Assembly: GCF_007474545.1 (NCBI RefSeq)
Contig: NZ_VKOG01000006.1
Location: 1 to 64,000, forward strand
DNA from: Chryseobacterium binzhouense
Lineage (GTDB): Bacteria > Bacteroidota > Bacteroidia > Flavobacteriales > Weeksellaceae
Reading direction: 5' to 3'
Length of the DNA: 64,000 bases
Below, in pieces: positions 8,969 through 42,610 of the stretch. Numbering within the stretch: position 1 is the first letter of the stretch; each line of letters starts with the position of its first letter. Made by a program: the position numbers and the translations under genes. The notes below the pieces were generated by a model. It was not told the DNA's origin and did not search any database. It worked only from the letters and a program-made list of their open reading frames with translations.

Positions 8969-11900
8969 TTATTCCTTAATGAATTTTTTCTGAGCAGTAC
9001 CTTTTACGTCATCAATGTCTATTACATAAAGTCCGTTGATTAGTCTGCTTACGTCGATCTTATTGTTTAAGATGATTCCGCTTGAGATTAACTGACCCGA
9101 AGCACTGTAAATCTTGTAATTCGCTTTCTTACTGATGTTTTTAACATTCAGTATGGTGCTTACTGGGTTCGGATAGATAAGAATATCTGTCTGGTTTACT
9201 GCATTATCTACAGGAAGCTTAGAAATTCTTACTGTATAATCTTCCACTTCACCATCTGCAAAACTTGTACAGTTTACAGGTATAGAACCTTTAGACATTG
9301 CTACTCTCATTACTACATATTTGTAGTCTGTCATGCTTACAAATGCATCAGCAGGAACGGTGAATGTAGCACTTGCCGTAGGATTGGAGTTTGGTCCGTC
9401 TGCAAGAATTCTCTCATTAAGATCAAACTCTCCGTTTCTGTTGAAATCAATCCAAACAGCTATACCAGAATCAGATGCCTGAGTTTTATTGATCACAATC
9501 TGGTTACCTGCAGAACCCTGAACCATTTCTATAAAAGCATCAGGATCATTAGTATAATTCGTATACGTGGATGCCAAAGAAACTTTAGTCATTTCAGGTT
9601 TGCCCGTTGGTCTGGCTGTAACTTGTGAAATATATTCAGTAGTTGAATTAGCAGACTGCATCGGACAGTAAGTAACCGTTGGTGTTGTGAAGTAGTATGG
9701 TGGAGTAAAGTTACCCGGTGTACCACTGCAAACATTGGCTACCTGCATCTCATATTTCGTCAATTCAAGAAGACCCGTAACAGTATACGTATTGGTATTT
9801 ACCGTAATCGTATTCCAGCCAGGAATTCCAACTTTTCTGTATCTGAAGATATAAGAGTTCGTAGCTCCAGGTCCTGTAAATGCATCCCAAATCACTACTG
9901 CACTGGTAGGATTAAGCTGAGTAATGGTAAGTCCCGGTGGCGGTACCTGACACAGTCTTACCGTAGTAAACACCTGAGGAAACACCTGAGGATTGGAGAA
10001 GTTATTCGGTGTGGTTTCTCCAACACAGATATTCGCTACCTGTACTTCATACGTTACAAATGAACTTAATCCGGTAATGGTGTAAGAGTTCAATGGCGGC
10101 TGTGGCAATGTAGGAGCTGAAATAGTGATCCATGTTCCTGTCCCTACTTCTCTGTATCTCAAAATATAATTCGCACTTGCTACAACAGGATTCCATGTTA
10201 CTACTGCCGAGTTAGCAGTAACATTGCTCACCACTACATTCGGAGGCGTAGGATCACATCGTGTGGTAAAGGTTCTGATTGGCGTGAAAGTTCCTACTGA
10301 AGTATTACAAACAGCTGCAATCTGTACCTCATACTGCGTGGCAGGCGTTAAACCTGTCAGCTGATAAGGAGGAATACCGCTGATGGATGATACATTCACT
10401 GAAGTCCATGCAGAAGCAGGAGTCGTTACAGGTCTGTACTGAATAACATAGCTCAGGTTATTTGCTGCCGGTGTCCATACGATATTAGCTGAAGTGTGCG
10501 TAATGGTATTGAAGGTAGGAGTTCCAGGCGTTGCATTGCTGCATGGTCTGAGTCTTACCGCATAATCTTCTACCTCTCCATTGATAGGTCCTGTACACAT
10601 TACCGGAGCACTTGTACGTCTAAGTGCTACTCTCATAGTAGTAGTGTACGGTCCGGTGTAAGTACTTGGCTGGTTTGGAACTGTAAATGTTGCAGTTACA
10701 GGAGTGGTCGTACTTGCTGCTGAAATTAAGATTCTTTCATTATCTGCAAAAACTCCGTTTCGGTCAAAATCTATCCATGCTGTTACTGCTTCACTGTAAG
10801 TAGTTCCGTCCCATCCTTTTCCAACTGAAATCTGATTTCCTGTAGAACCTATTTCAAGGTTAATCACCGGAGTTGTATAGCTCGTGTAGTTGGTCTGAAG
10901 AGTCGTATTGCTTACCACAGGGAAATTAACAGGCGTTACCGTTACATTGGCAATATAATCATTGGTGCCCGTTCCTACCATCGGACAGTAAGACAGTGGC
11001 GGTGTCGTAAAGTTGACAGAAGGACCAAATGCACCCGGTGTCCCGTTACAAATCGTCTGAACCTGAACCTGATAAGCGGTCTGCTCGGTAAGTCCTGTAA
11101 TCGTGTAAAAACTCTGACCAGTTGGGGTTCCTGTTGGTAAAACCTGTCCCGCTGCAGTTGGAAGCCATGGTCCGCTTGGACTCAGTCTCCACCTGATAAC
11201 ATAATTGGCTCCTAAAGTCGGAGTCCACGAAACTAATGCCGTGTTGTGGGTTGGGGTAGTTACAGTAATTGGAGTAGGTGCAGCAGTGGTACACGGTTGA
11301 AGGTCAGCTAGTACAACATTATAATCTTCAACTTCACCATAAGTAAAAGTTCCACAAGGATTCGGAAGACCGCTTTCTCTTAAGATAACTCTCATCTTTA
11401 CTGGAAGATTCCCCATGTATGCACCTTGCGCTGCTGTTCCGGGAACTGTAAATGTTCCATTTACTAGAGTGATTTGGTTTGAAGGTGTATCTAAAATTCT
11501 CTCGCTGTCTTCAAAAACACCATTTCTGTTAAAATCAATCCAAGCTCTTGCTGACGCATTCCATAAAGAATTAGGATACGTTTTTGTTACAGAAATACTG
11601 TTATTTGCAGTTCCTCTGAATAAAGTTATTAATCTTGTCGGATCGCTTCCGTAATCTGTGTAAAAAGGCGGCGGAGATGGAGAGTTACTAACCATCGGTG
11701 TTCCTCCAGTAGGTGTAACTGTTACATTAGATATATATTCATAAACTGTTGTACTTGTTGGATTTGCTGTACAATAAGTTAATGTAGCAGTTGTAAAACT
11801 GGTACTTGGTGACCAAGCGCCCTGAGTACCATTACAAACGGTAGCAACCTGAACTTCGTATGTAGTAGCTTCAAGTAAAGAAGATAAATAAGCAATATTC

Positions 11901-13426
11901 AATTGCGGACCAGGTACAGTTGCTGTAAGCCATGCTCCGGTACCTGTTCTGTATCTCACTAAATAAGTGGCACCTTGCGAAGCCGCCCAAGATACAGTTG
12001 CAGTTGAAACCGTAATATTACTGACTACTATAGGTGTAGGGGGTGCAACAGTACAAGGCTGCATATCTAACAATTGTACAGAGTAATCTTCAACTTCACC
12101 ATATGTGAAAGCTCCACAAGCATTCGGGTCACCTCCTTCTCTTAAAATAACTCTCATTCTAAGTGTGTTATTTCCAGTGTAAGCTGTAGGAGGTACAACA
12201 AAATTAGCCGTTGCTGTTGCGTTGGTATTAGAAGGATCATTTAAAATTCTTTCACTATCTTCAAAAACACCATTTCTATTAAAATCAATCCAAGCTCTAG
12301 TTCCTGCATTATAATTGAATCCAGGCCAAACTTTAGAAACTGTAATTGAATTTTGAACGGAGTTTCTGTACAATCTTACCAATCTTGCAGGATCAGTAGT
12401 ATAATCAGAATAAAATGGTGGTGGTACGGTGGATGTACTTACCATAGTAGGAAGACCATTTGGCGTAACCGTCACATTTGATATATATTCATAGACAAAA
12501 GTACTTGTAGGATTAGCCGTACAGTAGCCTAATGAAGGTGTTGTAAATGGCACAGCTGTTGAGAATGCTCCTTGAGTACCACCACAGACTGTTGCTATTT
12601 CAACTTCATACTGAGTACTTTCAGTAAGCCCCGGAATAGTATAATTATTCGCCAGAGGCGTAGTGATATTTACTGATGTCCAAGCGCCACCCGGCAAAGT
12701 TCTATATCTCAAAACATAAGTTGCTCCTGTTGAAGGCGTCCAAGACACGGTAGCTGATGTTGATGTCATATTTCCTACCGAAATATTCGAAGGAGGTGCA
12801 GTAGTACAAGGCTGAAGATTAAACGAAGTAAACTGTACTCTAGGAATAGAATTTTCTCTTCTATTTGCAGATGGAGGTGAAGCCGGATCTGGATTAGTTC
12901 CATCAGAATAATAAAGAATACCTCTATTTGTTCCAGCAGCATACGCTCCCCAGCTTTGTGTGCAAGAATAGTTTGCAGAGTTTTCATCAACAGCAATTAC
13001 TAAATTACTTGTACCATCCCAAATGAATGGAGTTGTTAAAGGTATTTCTACCCAAGCACCATTTGTCATATTCGGAAGAGTTCCCGAGTACACCTGCTGC
13101 AAATTTCCTAAAGGAATCCAACTAGTAGTTGTGGCAAAATCATTTTGGGCTGTATTTCCCATATATACCACCCAATCATTGTAATTCGCTTGGGTTGAAG
13201 CTGTTGAACCTACATAAAACCTTATGGCAGTAATGTAAGTATTTGCACCTAGGGCCGTGTTTACTTCAGCAGCAGTATAAATTTGCTGAGAATAATTATA
13301 GCCGTAACAGGAATAAATTGGAAGATAAGTGGACGTGGCCGTGCCTGCTCCAATTTGTCCTGTTTGGGATTTCATATTTGCAAAAAAAGCAAACATAAAA
13401 GCAAACGTTAATAAAAGTTTATTCAT
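8969..13426 (-). CDS. Large secreted FN3/GEVED repeat protein with T9SS sorting tail
   Basis: This 1485-residue cell-surface or secreted protein, probably an adhesin or matrix protein, has no catalytic motif. The signal peptide is at about 1-20. An unassigned N-terminal domain (about 21-203) is followed by FN3-1 (205-296), GEVED-1 (300-450), FN3-2 (455-547), GEVED-2 (550-707), FN3-3 (710-805), GEVED-3 (810-958), FN3-4, FN3-5 and FN3-6 (960-1258), GEVED-4 (1260-1402) and a type A T9SS tail (1412-1485, ILIYPNPVST onward). Each GEVED unit has a calcium-loop-like WIDFNRNG motif and ends GEVEDY. The first two GEVED units are similar even at DNA level, which suggests recent internal duplication. 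The gene is followed by its own terminator. Domain limits are estimates. Confidence 0.9.
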   Translation of the reverse strand: MNKLLLTFAFMFAFFANMKSQTGQIGAGTATSTYLPIYSCYGYNYSQQIYTAAEVNTALGANTYITAIRFYVGSTASTQANYNDWVVYMGNTAQNDFATTTSWIPLGNLQQVYSGTLPNMTNGAWVEIPLTTPFIWDGTSNLVIAVDENSANYSCTQSWGAYAAGTNRGILYYSDGTNPDPASPPSANRRENSIPRVQFTSFNLQPCTTAPPSNISVGNMTSTSATVSWTPSTGATYVLRYRTLPGGAWTSVNITTPLANNYTIPGLTESTQYEVEIATVCGGTQGAFSTAVPFTTPSLGYCTANPTSTFVYEYISNVTVTPNGLPTMVSTSTVPPPFYSDYTTDPARLVRLYRNSVQNSITVSKVWPGFNYNAGTRAWIDFNRNGVFEDSERILNDPSNTNATATANFVVPPTAYTGNNTLRMRVILREGGDPNACGAFTYGEVEDYSVQLLDMQPCTVAPPTPIVVSNITVSTATVSWAASQGATYLVRYRTGTGAWLTATVPGPQLNIAYLSSLLEATTYEVQVATVCNGTQGAWSPSTSFTTATLTYCTANPTSTTVYEYISNVTVTPTGGTPMVSNSPSPPPFYTDYGSDPTRLITLFRGTANNSISVTKTYPNSLWNASARAWIDFNRNGVFEDSERILDTPSNQITLVNGTFTVPGTAAQGAYMGNLPVKMRVILRESGLPNPCGTFTYGEVEDYNVVLADLQPCTTAAPTPITVTTPTHNTALVSWTPTLGANYVIRWRLSPSGPWLPTAAGQVLPTGTPTGQSFYTITGLTEQTAYQVQVQTICNGTPGAFGPSVNFTTPPLSYCPMVGTGTNDYIANVTVTPVNFPVVSNTTLQTNYTSYTTPVINLEIGSTGNQISVGKGWDGTTYSEAVTAWIDFDRNGVFADNERILISAASTTTPVTATFTVPNQPSTYTGPYTTTMRVALRRTSAPVMCTGPINGEVEDYAVRLRPCSNATPGTPTFNTITHTSANIVWTPAANNLSYVIQYRPVTTPASAWTSVNVSSISGIPPYQLTGLTPATQYEVQIAAVCNTSVGTFTPIRTFTTRCDPTPPNVVVSNVTANSAVVTWNPVVASANYILRYREVGTGTWITISAPTLPQPPLNSYTITGLSSFVTYEVQVANICVGETTPNNFSNPQVFPQVFTTVRLCQVPPPGLTITQLNPTSAVVIWDAFTGPGATNSYIFRYRKVGIPGWNTITVNTNTYTVTGLLELTKYEMQVANVCSGTPGNFTPPYYFTTPTVTYCPMQSANSTTEYISQVTARPTGKPEMTKVSLASTYTNYTNDPDAFIEMVQGSAGNQIVINKTQASDSGIAVWIDFNRNGEFDLNERILADGPNSNPTASATFTVPADAFVSMTDYKYVVMRVAMSKGSIPVNCTSFADGEVEDYTVRISKLPVDNAVNQTDILIYPNPVSTILNVKNISKKANYKIYSASGQLISSGIILNNKIDVSRLINGLYVIDIDDVKGTAQKKFIKE

Positions 13427-39282: not shown

Positions 39283-40068
39283 ATGAAAGCAATCTGGAAA
39301 GGCGCCATCGGCTTTGGCTTAGTTAATATCCCTGTGAAAATTTATTCTGCAACCGAAACCAGCAAGCTGGATTTGGATATGCTTGACAAATCAGATTATT
39401 CTAATATCAGATTCAAAAGAGTCAATGAAAAAACCGGAAAGGAAGTTAAGTGGGCGAATATTGTGAAAGGCTATTTAATGGATGATAAATACATCATTCT
39501 TGATGAAGAAGATTACGAAGCCGCCAGTCCTGAGAAAACAAAGATTCTTTCTATTGAGCATTTTGTAAAAGAAGCTGAAGTTGACTCGGTTTATTTTGAG
39601 AATCCCTACTTTCTAGAACCGCAAAAAAACGGCGAAAACGCTTATAGATTATTAATCAAAGCTTTAGAGCAAACCAAAATGGTAGGAATCGGGACATTTG
39701 TCCTTCGTGATACCGAAGCAATCGGTCTTATCCGTCCTTATAATGATGAAATTCTGGTTTTGAACAGACTCCGCTTTTCAGAAGAAATACGGGATTACAA
39801 AGATCTCAAAATTCCGGCTAAAAAAGCACCAAAACCCGCCGAACTCAAAATGGCAAAAAATTTAATCGAACAATTATCTGAAACATTTGATCCAACTGTT
39901 TATAAAAACACTTACTCTGCTGAACTCTTGAAAATTATCAAGAAAAAAGCAAAAGGAAAAACGGTAAAAGTCAAAAAATCTGAACCTGCAAAACAAGGTA
40001 AAGTAATTGATCTGATGGCTCAGCTGAAAGCCAGTCTGCAAGGTTCTAAATCTAAAAATGCTTCATAA
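39283..40068 (+). CDS. ku: Ku protein, non-homologous end joining
   Basis: Bacterial Ku forms a homodimeric ring on DNA double-strand ends and recruits LigD. The 261 residues start with the family N-terminus MKAIWKGAIGFGLVNIPVKIYSAT and run through a Ku beta-barrel (PYFLEPQKNGENAYRLLIKAL, MVGIGTFVLRDTE) to the Lys-rich C-terminal tail (IIKKKAKGKTVKVKKSEPAKQGKVIDLM). It lies two bases upstream of the phosphoesterase ORF, forming a ku-ligD operon. Confidence 0.96.
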   Translation: MKAIWKGAIGFGLVNIPVKIYSATETSKLDLDMLDKSDYSNIRFKRVNEKTGKEVKWANIVKGYLMDDKYIILDEEDYEAASPEKTKILSIEHFVKEAEVDSVYFENPYFLEPQKNGENAYRLLIKALEQTKMVGIGTFVLRDTEAIGLIRPYNDEILVLNRLRFSEEIRDYKDLKIPAKKAPKPAELKMAKNLIEQLSETFDPTVYKNTYSAELLKIIKKKAKGKTVKVKKSEPAKQGKVIDLMAQLKASLQGSKSKNAS

Positions 40069-40070
40069 TT

Positions 40071-40670
40071 ATGGCTTTAAAAGATTACAATAATAAAAGA
40101 AAGTTCGATGAAACCACCGAACCGAAGGGAACGACAAAAAAAAGCGACGACAAGTTAATTTTTGTTGTTCAACGACATGCAGCAAGCAGACTTCATTATG
40201 ATTTCAGGCTTGAAATGGAAGGTGTTTTGAAAAGCTGGGCAGTTCCGAAAGGTCCTTCCTTAAATCCTGATGACAAACGGTTGGCAATGATGGTGGAAGA
40301 TCATCCTTATGATTACAAAGATTTTGAAGGAAATATACCTGACGGAAATTACGGAGCAGGACAAGTGGAAGTCTGGGACAGCGGAACTTATGAAGCTTTA
40401 GACGAAACAAGTAAACTTTCAAACGAAAAAGAATTGTTAAAAGAATTAAAAGACGGCTCATTAAAATTCATTTTGCACGGAAAAAAACTGAAAGGAGAAT
40501 TTGCTTTGGTTAAAATGAAAAATGCTGAGAACAATGCATGGCTTTTAATTAAACATAAAGATAAATTCGCTGAAGAAGAATATGATGCAGAGGAGAATGT
40601 TTCAAAAAACTCTCAGGTGTCAAAATTTTTAGAGGAAAAAAAAAGCCCAAAAACAGGCAAAAAAAAGTAA
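40071..40670 (+). CDS. LigD 3'-phosphoesterase domain ORF (5' part of split ligD)
   Basis: These 199 residues match the PE domain of DNA ligase D (FVVQRHAASRLHYDFRLEMEG with the catalytic His/Asp/Arg set, AVPKGPSLNP, MVEDHPYDYKDFEG, PDGNYGAGQVEVWD), which trims 3' ends before ligation. In most LigD proteins it is fused to LIG and POL. Here the ORF ends with TAA at 40668, immediately after A AAA AAG (40661-40667). The ligase-polymerase frame is -1 relative to it and is open from 40586, so the two frames overlap by about 85 bases. Two A-runs (A9 at 40636, A8 at 40659) lie in the overlap. It may make a free PE protein, a frameshifted fused LigD, or both. Confidence 0.92.
   Translation: MALKDYNNKRKFDETTEPKGTTKKSDDKLIFVVQRHAASRLHYDFRLEMEGVLKSWAVPKGPSLNPDDKRLAMMVEDHPYDYKDFEGNIPDGNYGAGQVEVWDSGTYEALDETSKLSNEKELLKELKDGSLKFILHGKKLKGEFALVKMKNAENNAWLLIKHKDKFAEEEYDAEENVSKNSQVSKFLEEKKSPKTGKKK
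40661..40667 (+). promoter_or_regulatory. Candidate -1 ribosomal frameshift site
   Basis: A AAA AAG in the zero frame of the PE ORF, followed directly by TAA. This is the heptamer used in E. coli dnaX. A -1 slip continues GTA AGC TCT into the ligase frame. I find no strong downstream stem-loop. Confidence 0.5.
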
Positions 40671-40750
40671 GCTCTATCACAACCGAATCCCACTATAGAA
40701 AATTCAATACTTTAGGCGAAGAGAAAAAGCTGACAAGCTACATCAAACCT

Positions 40751-42610
40751 ATGCTTGCAAAACTTTCGGAGGAAGCCTTTGATCATCCCGACTGGATCTT
40801 CGAAATAAAATGGGACGGCTACAGAGCTGTTGCTGATCTCAGCAAGAAAGAACCTCTATTCTATTCCAGAAACGGAATTTCTTTTTTAAGTAAATTCAAA
40901 AAAATAAGCGAAGATTTTAAGGCACAGAAGCACCATATGATTCTTGATGGTGAAATTGTAGCTTACGATGAAAACGGAAAACCAAGCTTTCAATTGCTTC
41001 AGCAGATTGGCGATAATCCTGATTTAGCACTTACTTATCAGGTTTTTGATTTGCTTTGGCTGAATGGATATTCTACTCAAGAACTTCCCTTATTTCAACG
41101 AAAAGAACTTTTGAAAGATGCATTGGTAGAAACTAATTTGATTAAATATTGTGATCATGTTCCGGAAAACGGAATTGATTTCTTCGATCAGATGAAAAAA
41201 ATGAATCTGGAAGGAATGATTGCTAAAAAAGCCGACAGTATTTATACAGAAAACAGCAGAAGTACAGACTGGCTGAAAATAAAATTTACCAACACTGAAG
41301 AAGCAGTTATTTGCGGTTTTACCGAACCTAAAGGTTCCAGAATCGGCTTTGGAGCTTTAATTTTAGGAAAATATATTGATGGAGAATTAATTTACGCCGG
41401 ACATACCGGAACAGGATTCAATGCTGAATTGCTGAAAAAAATTCATTCTAAATTAACAAAAATAGAACAGAAAGAATCTCCTTTTGAAACCGCTCCAAAA
41501 ACAAATATGCCCGTTACATGGGTAAAACCAGAGCTTATCTGTGAAGTAAAATTTTCTGAAATCACCAAAGACGGAATGTTCCGCCATCCTGTATTTGTCG
41601 CTATAAGAGAAGATAAAACAATTGACGACCTTCAAAACACCACACCTCAAAAACCTGAAAAAATGACAAAAAAACCCGTAAAAAAGTCTGATTCTGAATC
41701 TGATAAAGAAATCACCCTCAACCGACACAAAGTAAAACTCACCAATAAGGATAAAGTATATTTCCCAAAAGACGGCATTACAAAGGGTGATGTGATTGAA
41801 TATTATCAATCTGTCGCACAATATATTTTACCCCATCTGAAAAACCGTCCGCTTTCTCTCAATCGTTTTCCCAACGGAATTGAAGAATCGGGATTTTATC
41901 AAAAAGATGCAGGAGATTCTCTTCCGGATTGGATTGAAACAACAAAAGTACATTCAGATTCTACCGATAAATACATTGATTATGTCATCTGTAATGATAA
42001 AGCAACTTTAGCGTATCTCAATAATTTGGGCTGTATCGATCTTAATCCTTGGAATGCTTCTGTTCCGGATTTAGAAAATCCTGATTTTCTGGTTTTGGAT
42101 CTTGATCCGTCAAAGAAAAACAGTTTTGATGATGTCATAGAAACAGCTTTACAGGTAAATGAAGTTTTAAAATCAATTAAAGTGAAAGGTTATTGCAAAA
42201 CTTCCGGAAGTACAGGAATTCATGTTTATATTCCGATGAAAAAGCAGTACGATTTTGATCAGGTAAAAGATTTTGCCCATATTCTAATGAAGAAGGTAAA
42301 CACCCATCTTCCTGAACTTACTACTTTAGAACGAAGTTTAAAGAAACGAGACGATACTAAAATTTATCTTGATTATCTTCAAAACAGATCTGGACAGACT
42401 TTAGCGAGCGTCTACAGCATCCGTCCGAAAGAAGGAGCATCCGTTTCTATGCCTCTGGAGTGGGACGAACTGAAACCCGGTCTGAAACCTACTGATTATA
42501 CGATTCATAATGCGCTAGAAAGAATTAAAGAAAAAGGAGATTTGTTTAAGCCAGTTTTGGGAAAAGGAATTGATATGATGAAGGCTTTGGAATTGTTGCA
42601 GAATATGTAA
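40751..42610 (+). CDS. ligD: LigD ligase-polymerase ORF (3' part of split ligD)
   Basis: This ORF of 619 residues from the first ATG carries an ATP-dependent ligase domain (about 1-290) with nucleotidyl-transfer Lys20 in EIKWDGYR and later motifs DGEIVAYDENGKP, EGMIAKK and WLKIKF. A Lys/Glu-rich linker (about 295-325) leads to a primase-like polymerase domain (about 326-619; SLNRFPNG, FLVLDLDP with catalytic Asp pair, TSGSTGIHVYIP). The first ATG lies within the conserved PMLA entry of the ligase domain. Upstream in-frame sequence (ESHYRKFNTLGEEKKLTSYI) reads as a natural linker but has no ATG. A -1 shift at 40661-40667 would join it to PE as a protein of about 846 residues, a normal LigD size. 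Confidence 0.93.
   Translation: MLAKLSEEAFDHPDWIFEIKWDGYRAVADLSKKEPLFYSRNGISFLSKFKKISEDFKAQKHHMILDGEIVAYDENGKPSFQLLQQIGDNPDLALTYQVFDLLWLNGYSTQELPLFQRKELLKDALVETNLIKYCDHVPENGIDFFDQMKKMNLEGMIAKKADSIYTENSRSTDWLKIKFTNTEEAVICGFTEPKGSRIGFGALILGKYIDGELIYAGHTGTGFNAELLKKIHSKLTKIEQKESPFETAPKTNMPVTWVKPELICEVKFSEITKDGMFRHPVFVAIREDKTIDDLQNTTPQKPEKMTKKPVKKSDSESDKEITLNRHKVKLTNKDKVYFPKDGITKGDVIEYYQSVAQYILPHLKNRPLSLNRFPNGIEESGFYQKDAGDSLPDWIETTKVHSDSTDKYIDYVICNDKATLAYLNNLGCIDLNPWNASVPDLENPDFLVLDLDPSKKNSFDDVIETALQVNEVLKSIKVKGYCKTSGSTGIHVYIPMKKQYDFDQVKDFAHILMKKVNTHLPELTTLERSLKKRDDTKIYLDYLQNRSGQTLASVYSIRPKEGASVSMPLEWDELKPGLKPTDYTIHNALERIKEKGDLFKPVLGKGIDMMKALELLQNM

Follow-up and report, generated by a model that had tools for sequence, protein, structure and literature searches.

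In Escherichia coli, dnaX undergoes ribosomal frameshifting on A_AAA_AAG. Transcriptional slippage on an A9 tract of Thermus thermophilus dnaX gives rise to a short and a long protein (PMC1088944, PMC3711429), slippage by RNA polymerase having been shown at this tract (PMC1088944), and in two-ORF dnaX genes tau is made by recoding at A7-A10 (PMC3711429), according to the accessible portions of these papers. In Citrobacter rodentium, as the accessible portion of PMC4256274 describes, transcriptional frameshifting at an A11 tract of tssM generates extra-A mRNAs and two length variants, both of which are needed, with slippage products carrying 10 to 15 A's. All Bacteroidetes with NHEJ are of the conventional kind according to the accessible portion of PMC7719229. 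A literature search for LigD with frameshifting or slippage found no report, while supplementary tables may hold a ligD entry, and no ATP-dependent DNA ligase with recoding appeared among the matches listed; within the accessible text, 'ligase' occurs in PMC3711429 only as Mur ligase, 'DNA ligase' and 'LigD' were not found in PMC5009743, and 'ligase' and 'ligD' were not found in PMC4066793. The slippage device is already known, and ligD as a user of it is without a report in the literature searched.

The window, a 64,000-nucleotide stretch of Chryseobacterium binzhouense DNA (contig NZ_VKOG01000006.1, positions 1 to 64,000), carries on its forward strand a LigD set of phosphoesterase (PE), ligase (LIG) and primase-polymerase (POL) domains, as recognised by NCBIfam and Pfam models, with ku nearby. 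The ku gene, encoding the NHEJ end-binding protein (39283-40068; TIGR02772, E=5.6e-88; PF02735), ends 2 nt 5' of the PE start, and a same-strand Ku likewise stands 5' of ligD in 52/52 split loci with enough upstream DNA (106 considered). The zero-frame PE ORF (40071-40670; 199 aa; TIGR02777 over residues 3-165, E=4.2e-67; PF13298), the single LigD_N match in the whole genome, ends with TAA at 40668-40670. LIG-POL lies in the -1 frame relative to PE, which follows an upstream TGA at 40583 and is open from 40586 to 42610, so both frames are open across an overlap at 40586-40670. TIGR02776 (DNA ligase D) matches this open frame at 40586-42607 (E=2.2e-165), with LIG at 40748-41632 (TIGR02779, open-frame residues 55-349; PF01068, PF04679) and POL at 41732-42475 (TIGR02778, open-frame residues 383-630; PF21686). 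TIGR02777, TIGR02779, TIGR02778 and TIGR02772 all score above their cut-offs, in agreement with Pfam. The first ATG of the LIG-POL frame, encoding the Met of a PMLA motif, is at 40751, from where the frame runs to 42610 (619 aa; TIGR02776), and the LIG-frame sequence 5' of it reads ESHYRKFNTLGEEKKLTSYIKPMLA. The positions that the original prediction gave for PE, its stop, a heptamer at that stop, the -1 frame and this ATG are all correct in the sequence. Elsewhere in the genome LIG-POL has one other match, 27% identical over residues 11-297. If the two frames were never joined, the cell would be without a three-domain LigD.

To compare this arrangement across relatives, we parsed 208 loci from genus, family, order and named-contig searches, having dropped five without a LIG match (L056, L057, L119, L120, L121) and four as incomplete (L181, L191, L197, L207). 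Removal of 24 loci of identical sequence left 184 distinct ones, 110 split and 74 fused; L122, L123 and L155 were removed before a tree of 181 rows was built, and 106 split loci are of the frameshift type once L155 and L122-L124 are left out. We call a locus close if its PE is at least 80% identical to that of the window, which places L050 and L051 among the others, though both are filed under this genus. The codon alignment and a 55-locus frame test used close split loci, with L060 left out of the frame test. Within the genus, 51/60 genomes have a PE match, and in these ligD is split in 48, fused in two (G013, G055) and a remnant in one (G038). PE fragments with no LIG match nearby, one with an internal stop, mark L056 (G038) and L057 (G009) as ligD remnants, and three genus genomes carry further, longer fused LigDs (L052, L053, L054, L055; 909-929 aa) whose linker run never exceeds A6. 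Three loci filed or named as Chryseobacterium (L050, L051, L173) hold an Epilithonimonas-type ligD (PE 67-68% identical, A10 or A11), perhaps through transfer or because of a taxonomic boundary. L174 (a 6.1-kb contig in a record named Paenimyroides) and L201 (Candidatus Methylobacter favarea) fall in the tree among Epilithonimonas-type and other Bacteroidota loci, where contamination or transfer is possible.

The original prediction placed the slip at the zero-frame A_AAA_AAG heptamer at 40661-40667, which sits within an A8 run (40659-40666) directly ahead of the PE stop. We reject this site, since the heptamer lies directly at the stop in just 4/66 distinct close split loci (it falls among the final six codons of PE in 29/66). 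Very probably the slip site is instead an A9 run further upstream, at 40636-40644, read in the PE frame as GAA AAA AAA AGC (40635-40646): in the same loci (L155 left out) this run is A9 in 65/66 and A8 in the remaining one. Alignment with relatives thus upheld the -1 frame of the original prediction but not its heptamer at the stop. Over all searches, A9 or longer lies within the overlap in 103/110 distinct split loci, the seven exceptions being L060 and L168 (A8, +1 frame), L155, L122, L123, L124 and L200; a run of A8-A12 is found in 105/106 frameshift-type split loci (exception L200). In the 3.61-Mb genome the A9 pattern has 213 matches when overlapping ones are counted.

The tract is kept beyond what the protein needs, as judged from invariant synonymous codons at the run and from fused linkers that exceed expectation, albeit among related rows. 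In the codon alignment, the run codons GAA, AAA and AAA do not vary in 56/56 PE genes, and the next Ser is AGC or AGT in 55/55. Of 37 conserved Lys/Glu columns, just five keep a single codon throughout (GAG188, GAA189, AAA190, AAA191 and AAA194), while background use in these 56 genes has Lys as AAG in 189/1207 cells and Glu as GAG in 153/831; the conserved Asp column GAT5 is likewise invariant. The GAG codon directly 5' of the run (40632-40634; GAG in 55/55 close loci with Glu there) does not bound the run, has no evident coding reason and is absent from Epilithonimonas-type loci. In 28/105 split loci with a run, the run begins directly after or within a LIG-frame stop, so that in these loci the shift cannot lie upstream of that stop. 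In the Epilithonimonas-type loci, where the two frames overlap by 28 nt, an A10 run begins within a LIG-frame TAA and is followed, 17 nt further on, by the PE stop, which makes the run the evident place for a slip.

We consider it quite probable, from comparison of these sequences, that poly-A slippage joins the PE and LIG-POL frames and yields both free PE and an 846-residue PE-LIG-POL protein, the slipping agent probably being RNA polymerase. Under this mechanism ligD would be one PE-LIG-POL gene carried in two frames with the A9 tract at 40636-40644 as the junction. Without slippage, translation would stay in the PE frame until the TAA at 40668, giving the free 199-aa PE; where RNA polymerase slips on the tract, the transcript would gain one A (or lose two), the frame would change after codon 191, and translation would continue into LIG-POL for a total of 846 residues (191 + 655), both proteins thereby arising from a single transcript unit. 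The original prediction had anticipated free PE together with a fused product of some 846 residues, and comparative evidence for a selected -1 transition supports these as the expected products; its option of poly-A transcriptional slippage is now the mechanism we favour. Comparison across relatives establishes that the frame relation and the run are conserved, that the linker is coding yet has no start codon, that fused relatives carry one more A in the run, and that dnaX shares this layout; from sequence we infer that slippage occurs, that its agent is the polymerase and not the ribosome, and that free PE has a use of its own.

We favour transcription because the run is uninterrupted in 105/105 loci, because there is no conserved downstream structure, and because three loci need the opposite change. 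Besides the 74 fused orthologs, the shift direction is -1 in 102/105 loci with a run and +1 in 3/105, namely L060 (A8), L168 (A8) and L174 (A12), whose frames would not be joined by a -1 slip of the ribosome. The ligD runs of A9-A11 also fall within the range in which RNA polymerase slippage has been shown.

The ribosome is the strongest alternative, though an unlikely one: RNA polymerase would copy the run faithfully, and programmed -1 frameshifting would take place on A_AAA_AAA within the A9 run. In its favour, all 105 loci with a run (105/105) have an A_AAA_AAA/G heptamer in frame there. The 30 of 60 tRNA matches examined include three Lys tRNA genes, all UUU and none CUU, which would suit slippage by the ribosome. 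A_AAA_AAG also serves a ribosome as a slippery sequence, and yet the run is uninterrupted, at A8-A12, in all 105 loci. Shine-Dalgarno-like stimulators are spaced about 10-14 nt upstream of the slip site; as a candidate of this kind the GAGG here finds no support in its position, abutting the run, or in Epilithonimonas-type loci, from which it is absent. In agreement with the original prediction, the 70 nt 3' of the A9 run hold no strong stem-loop in the window (z = -0.97). Nor did a conserved downstream structure emerge over 55 relatives (mean z -0.96; 9/55 below -2; pseudoknot-free folding), and the RNAalifold consensus on 28 of the 55 loci was empty. The shared direction of 102/105 leans towards the ribosome by the criterion given in the accessible portion of PMC3711429, by which a uniform shift direction among orthologs points to ribosomal slippage. 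The three loci in the +1 frame, like the single-A differences that separate sister loci, suit a process that both adds and removes A's.

The family's dnaX offers an internal comparison for slippage on the ligD run. In the same genome (L249; contig C15, about 11579-12646, outside the window), the first dnaX frame encodes 361 residues, an A11 run lies just before its stop, and the C-terminal part follows in the -1 frame, which has no stop for 205 codons. A dnaX match was obtained in 44/45 family genomes, with open frames of 361-411 residues in 43 and 593 in one. In each of the best-scoring 30 of these 44, a run of A10-A12 falls within the 150 nt upstream of the stop, and the -1 frame continues without a stop for 194-229 codons. 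Other bacteria need the long DnaX, and if these organisms do too, they slip productively on poly-A. By its sequence layout, the family dnaX is of the two-ORF kind described in the accessible portion of PMC3711429.

Among the relatives, several fused and split sister ligD loci differ by one A in the length of the tract. L036 is fused with A10 among A9 splits, L051, L077 and L085 are fused with A11 beside A10 splits (the neighbours of L085 being nearly identical), and L072 is fused with A10 beside the A9 split L078; L059 is fused with A9 kept, so its frames must have been joined elsewhere. On the tree of 181 rows we count at least 18 changes between the split and fused states (FastTree only, with long-branch warnings). 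The tract is also found in fused genes, where A9 or longer occurs in the 50-codon linker in 39/74 against 27.0 expected from synonymous resampling, an expectation showing that Lys-rich linkers often give A9 by codon use alone. The excess is seen in nearer genes (19/33 against 14.5 expected) and in farther ones (20/41 against 12.4), while elsewhere in these genes A9 or longer occurs in 6 of 1099 50-codon windows against 20.3 expected; because the rows are related and so not independent cases, the excess serves as an indication and falls short of a test. After the run, slippage in either direction would run into a stop within 23 codons in 37/39 fused genes with a run, one direction being open for 40 or 46 codons in the remaining two, so free PE could come from fused genes as well. 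We give even chances to a broader, Bacteroidota-wide reading of these sequences, in which the PE-LIG linker would be a selected slippage tract in either frame state, a slip yielding the full enzyme from split genes and free PE from fused ones, with dnaX behaving alike across the family. If this were so, the make-up of the NHEJ enzyme would be set by slippage.

The one-A differences between sister loci would also be expected if the length of the tract changed at replication, switching full-length LigD on and off among cells or strains, and poly-A is a known phase-variation tract (PMC3711429, in its accessible portion). Free switching should not, however, hold one length genus-wide, and the out-of-frame A9 is common to 65/66 close split loci. 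LIG-POL measured from PMLA also stays long, at 615-629 codons in 36/36 close loci with enough DNA; among the other loci (n=39) it spans 619-634 codons in 34, 692 in one and 206-309 in four. We regard phase variation as very improbable.

A further alternative is a pair of independent genes in which LIG-POL has its own, or a coupled, initiation at the ATG at 40751. This ATG is conserved, and LIG-POL from there contains the LIG and POL domains; it encodes, however, the Met of the PMLA motif, which is found in fused LigDs too. Between the PE stop and the PMLA ATG (40671-40750 in the window), the LIG frame contains a stop in 0/55 loci, against 52/55 and 53/55 for the other two frames, and, broken down by codon position, LIG-frame differences amount to 0.313, 0.241 and 0.527 (55 loci). 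The stretch thus evolves as a LIG-frame protein, as the original prediction's plausible linker would, and it contains no ATG in 55/55 loci, with GTG or TTG present in 10/55 and neither in the other 45. The distance from the end of the run to PMLA is 106 nt in 29 loci, 103 in 22 and 100 in 4 (n=55), so indels preserve the LIG frame, against what an independent LIG-POL gene would suggest. As a conserved protein segment without a start, the linker would have to be translated from PE, and we disfavour an independent LIG-POL start, to which we assign only a slight probability. A few loci (L122, L123, L124, L200) have an ATG in frame close to the junction and resemble two-gene arrangements; over all 110 split loci, such an ATG is present in six (L122, L123, L124, L200, L203, L213) and any ATG, GTG or TTG in 23. 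L122, L123 and L124 come from Flavobacteriales outside the window's family and have a LIG ORF of 308 codons after PE, whose ATG overlaps or touches the PE stop. In L069 the PE stop is located beyond the PMLA ATG.

The split in ligD is not an error, as far as comparison of genomes can tell: the pseudogene or sequencing and assembly error that the original prediction listed as its alternative is excluded by conservation of the split across relatives and has a negligible probability, given the identical -1 split at a run in 102 distinct loci and the strong purifying selection on PE and LIG in close split loci, even if L155 is perhaps such a case. Besides its A8 run, the ligD region of L155 (CP078104) differs from its relatives in further homopolymers, perhaps through sequencing errors.

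Most likely, then, judging from the comparative evidence, slippage on a run of A's lets this bacterium and many of its relatives make the complete enzyme alongside a short end-cleaning protein. If true, programmed slippage would govern an enzyme of bacterial break repair and fix the proportion of the end-cleaning protein to the complete ligase-polymerase. Annotation would be corrected as well: a split ligD, which would be taken for two genes or for unconventional NHEJ, would be a single gene. The series found in nature, from A8 to A12, split and fused and with dnaX as an internal comparison, bears on the question of polymerase versus ribosome in Bacteroidota.

Like the bacterial NHEJ LigD of the PE-LIG-POL kind, the locus considered here has three domains and ku next door; unlike the usual LigD, that of the window is carried in two frames, and a single polypeptide is predicted to arise through a slip. 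It shares with E. coli dnaX the occurrence of the heptamer, at 40661-40667, but in ligD this heptamer is not conserved and no conserved stem-loop accompanies it. In T. thermophilus dnaX, as proposed for ligD, an A9 tract in a DNA-metabolism gene is associated with two protein lengths, the difference being that it is a different gene and that its long form is the one in frame in the DNA, whereas in ligD the short form is. With C. rodentium tssM the locus shares a poly-A tract before a stop and, by prediction, two length variants, in another gene, with slippage established in tssM by experiment and argued in ligD from comparison. The layout is the same in the two-ORF dnaX genes (PMC3711429, accessible portion), in which the short product is likewise read in the zero frame and the long one after a -1 shift, with poly-A at the junction; ligD is a different gene in a different pathway, and the likeness is one of layout.
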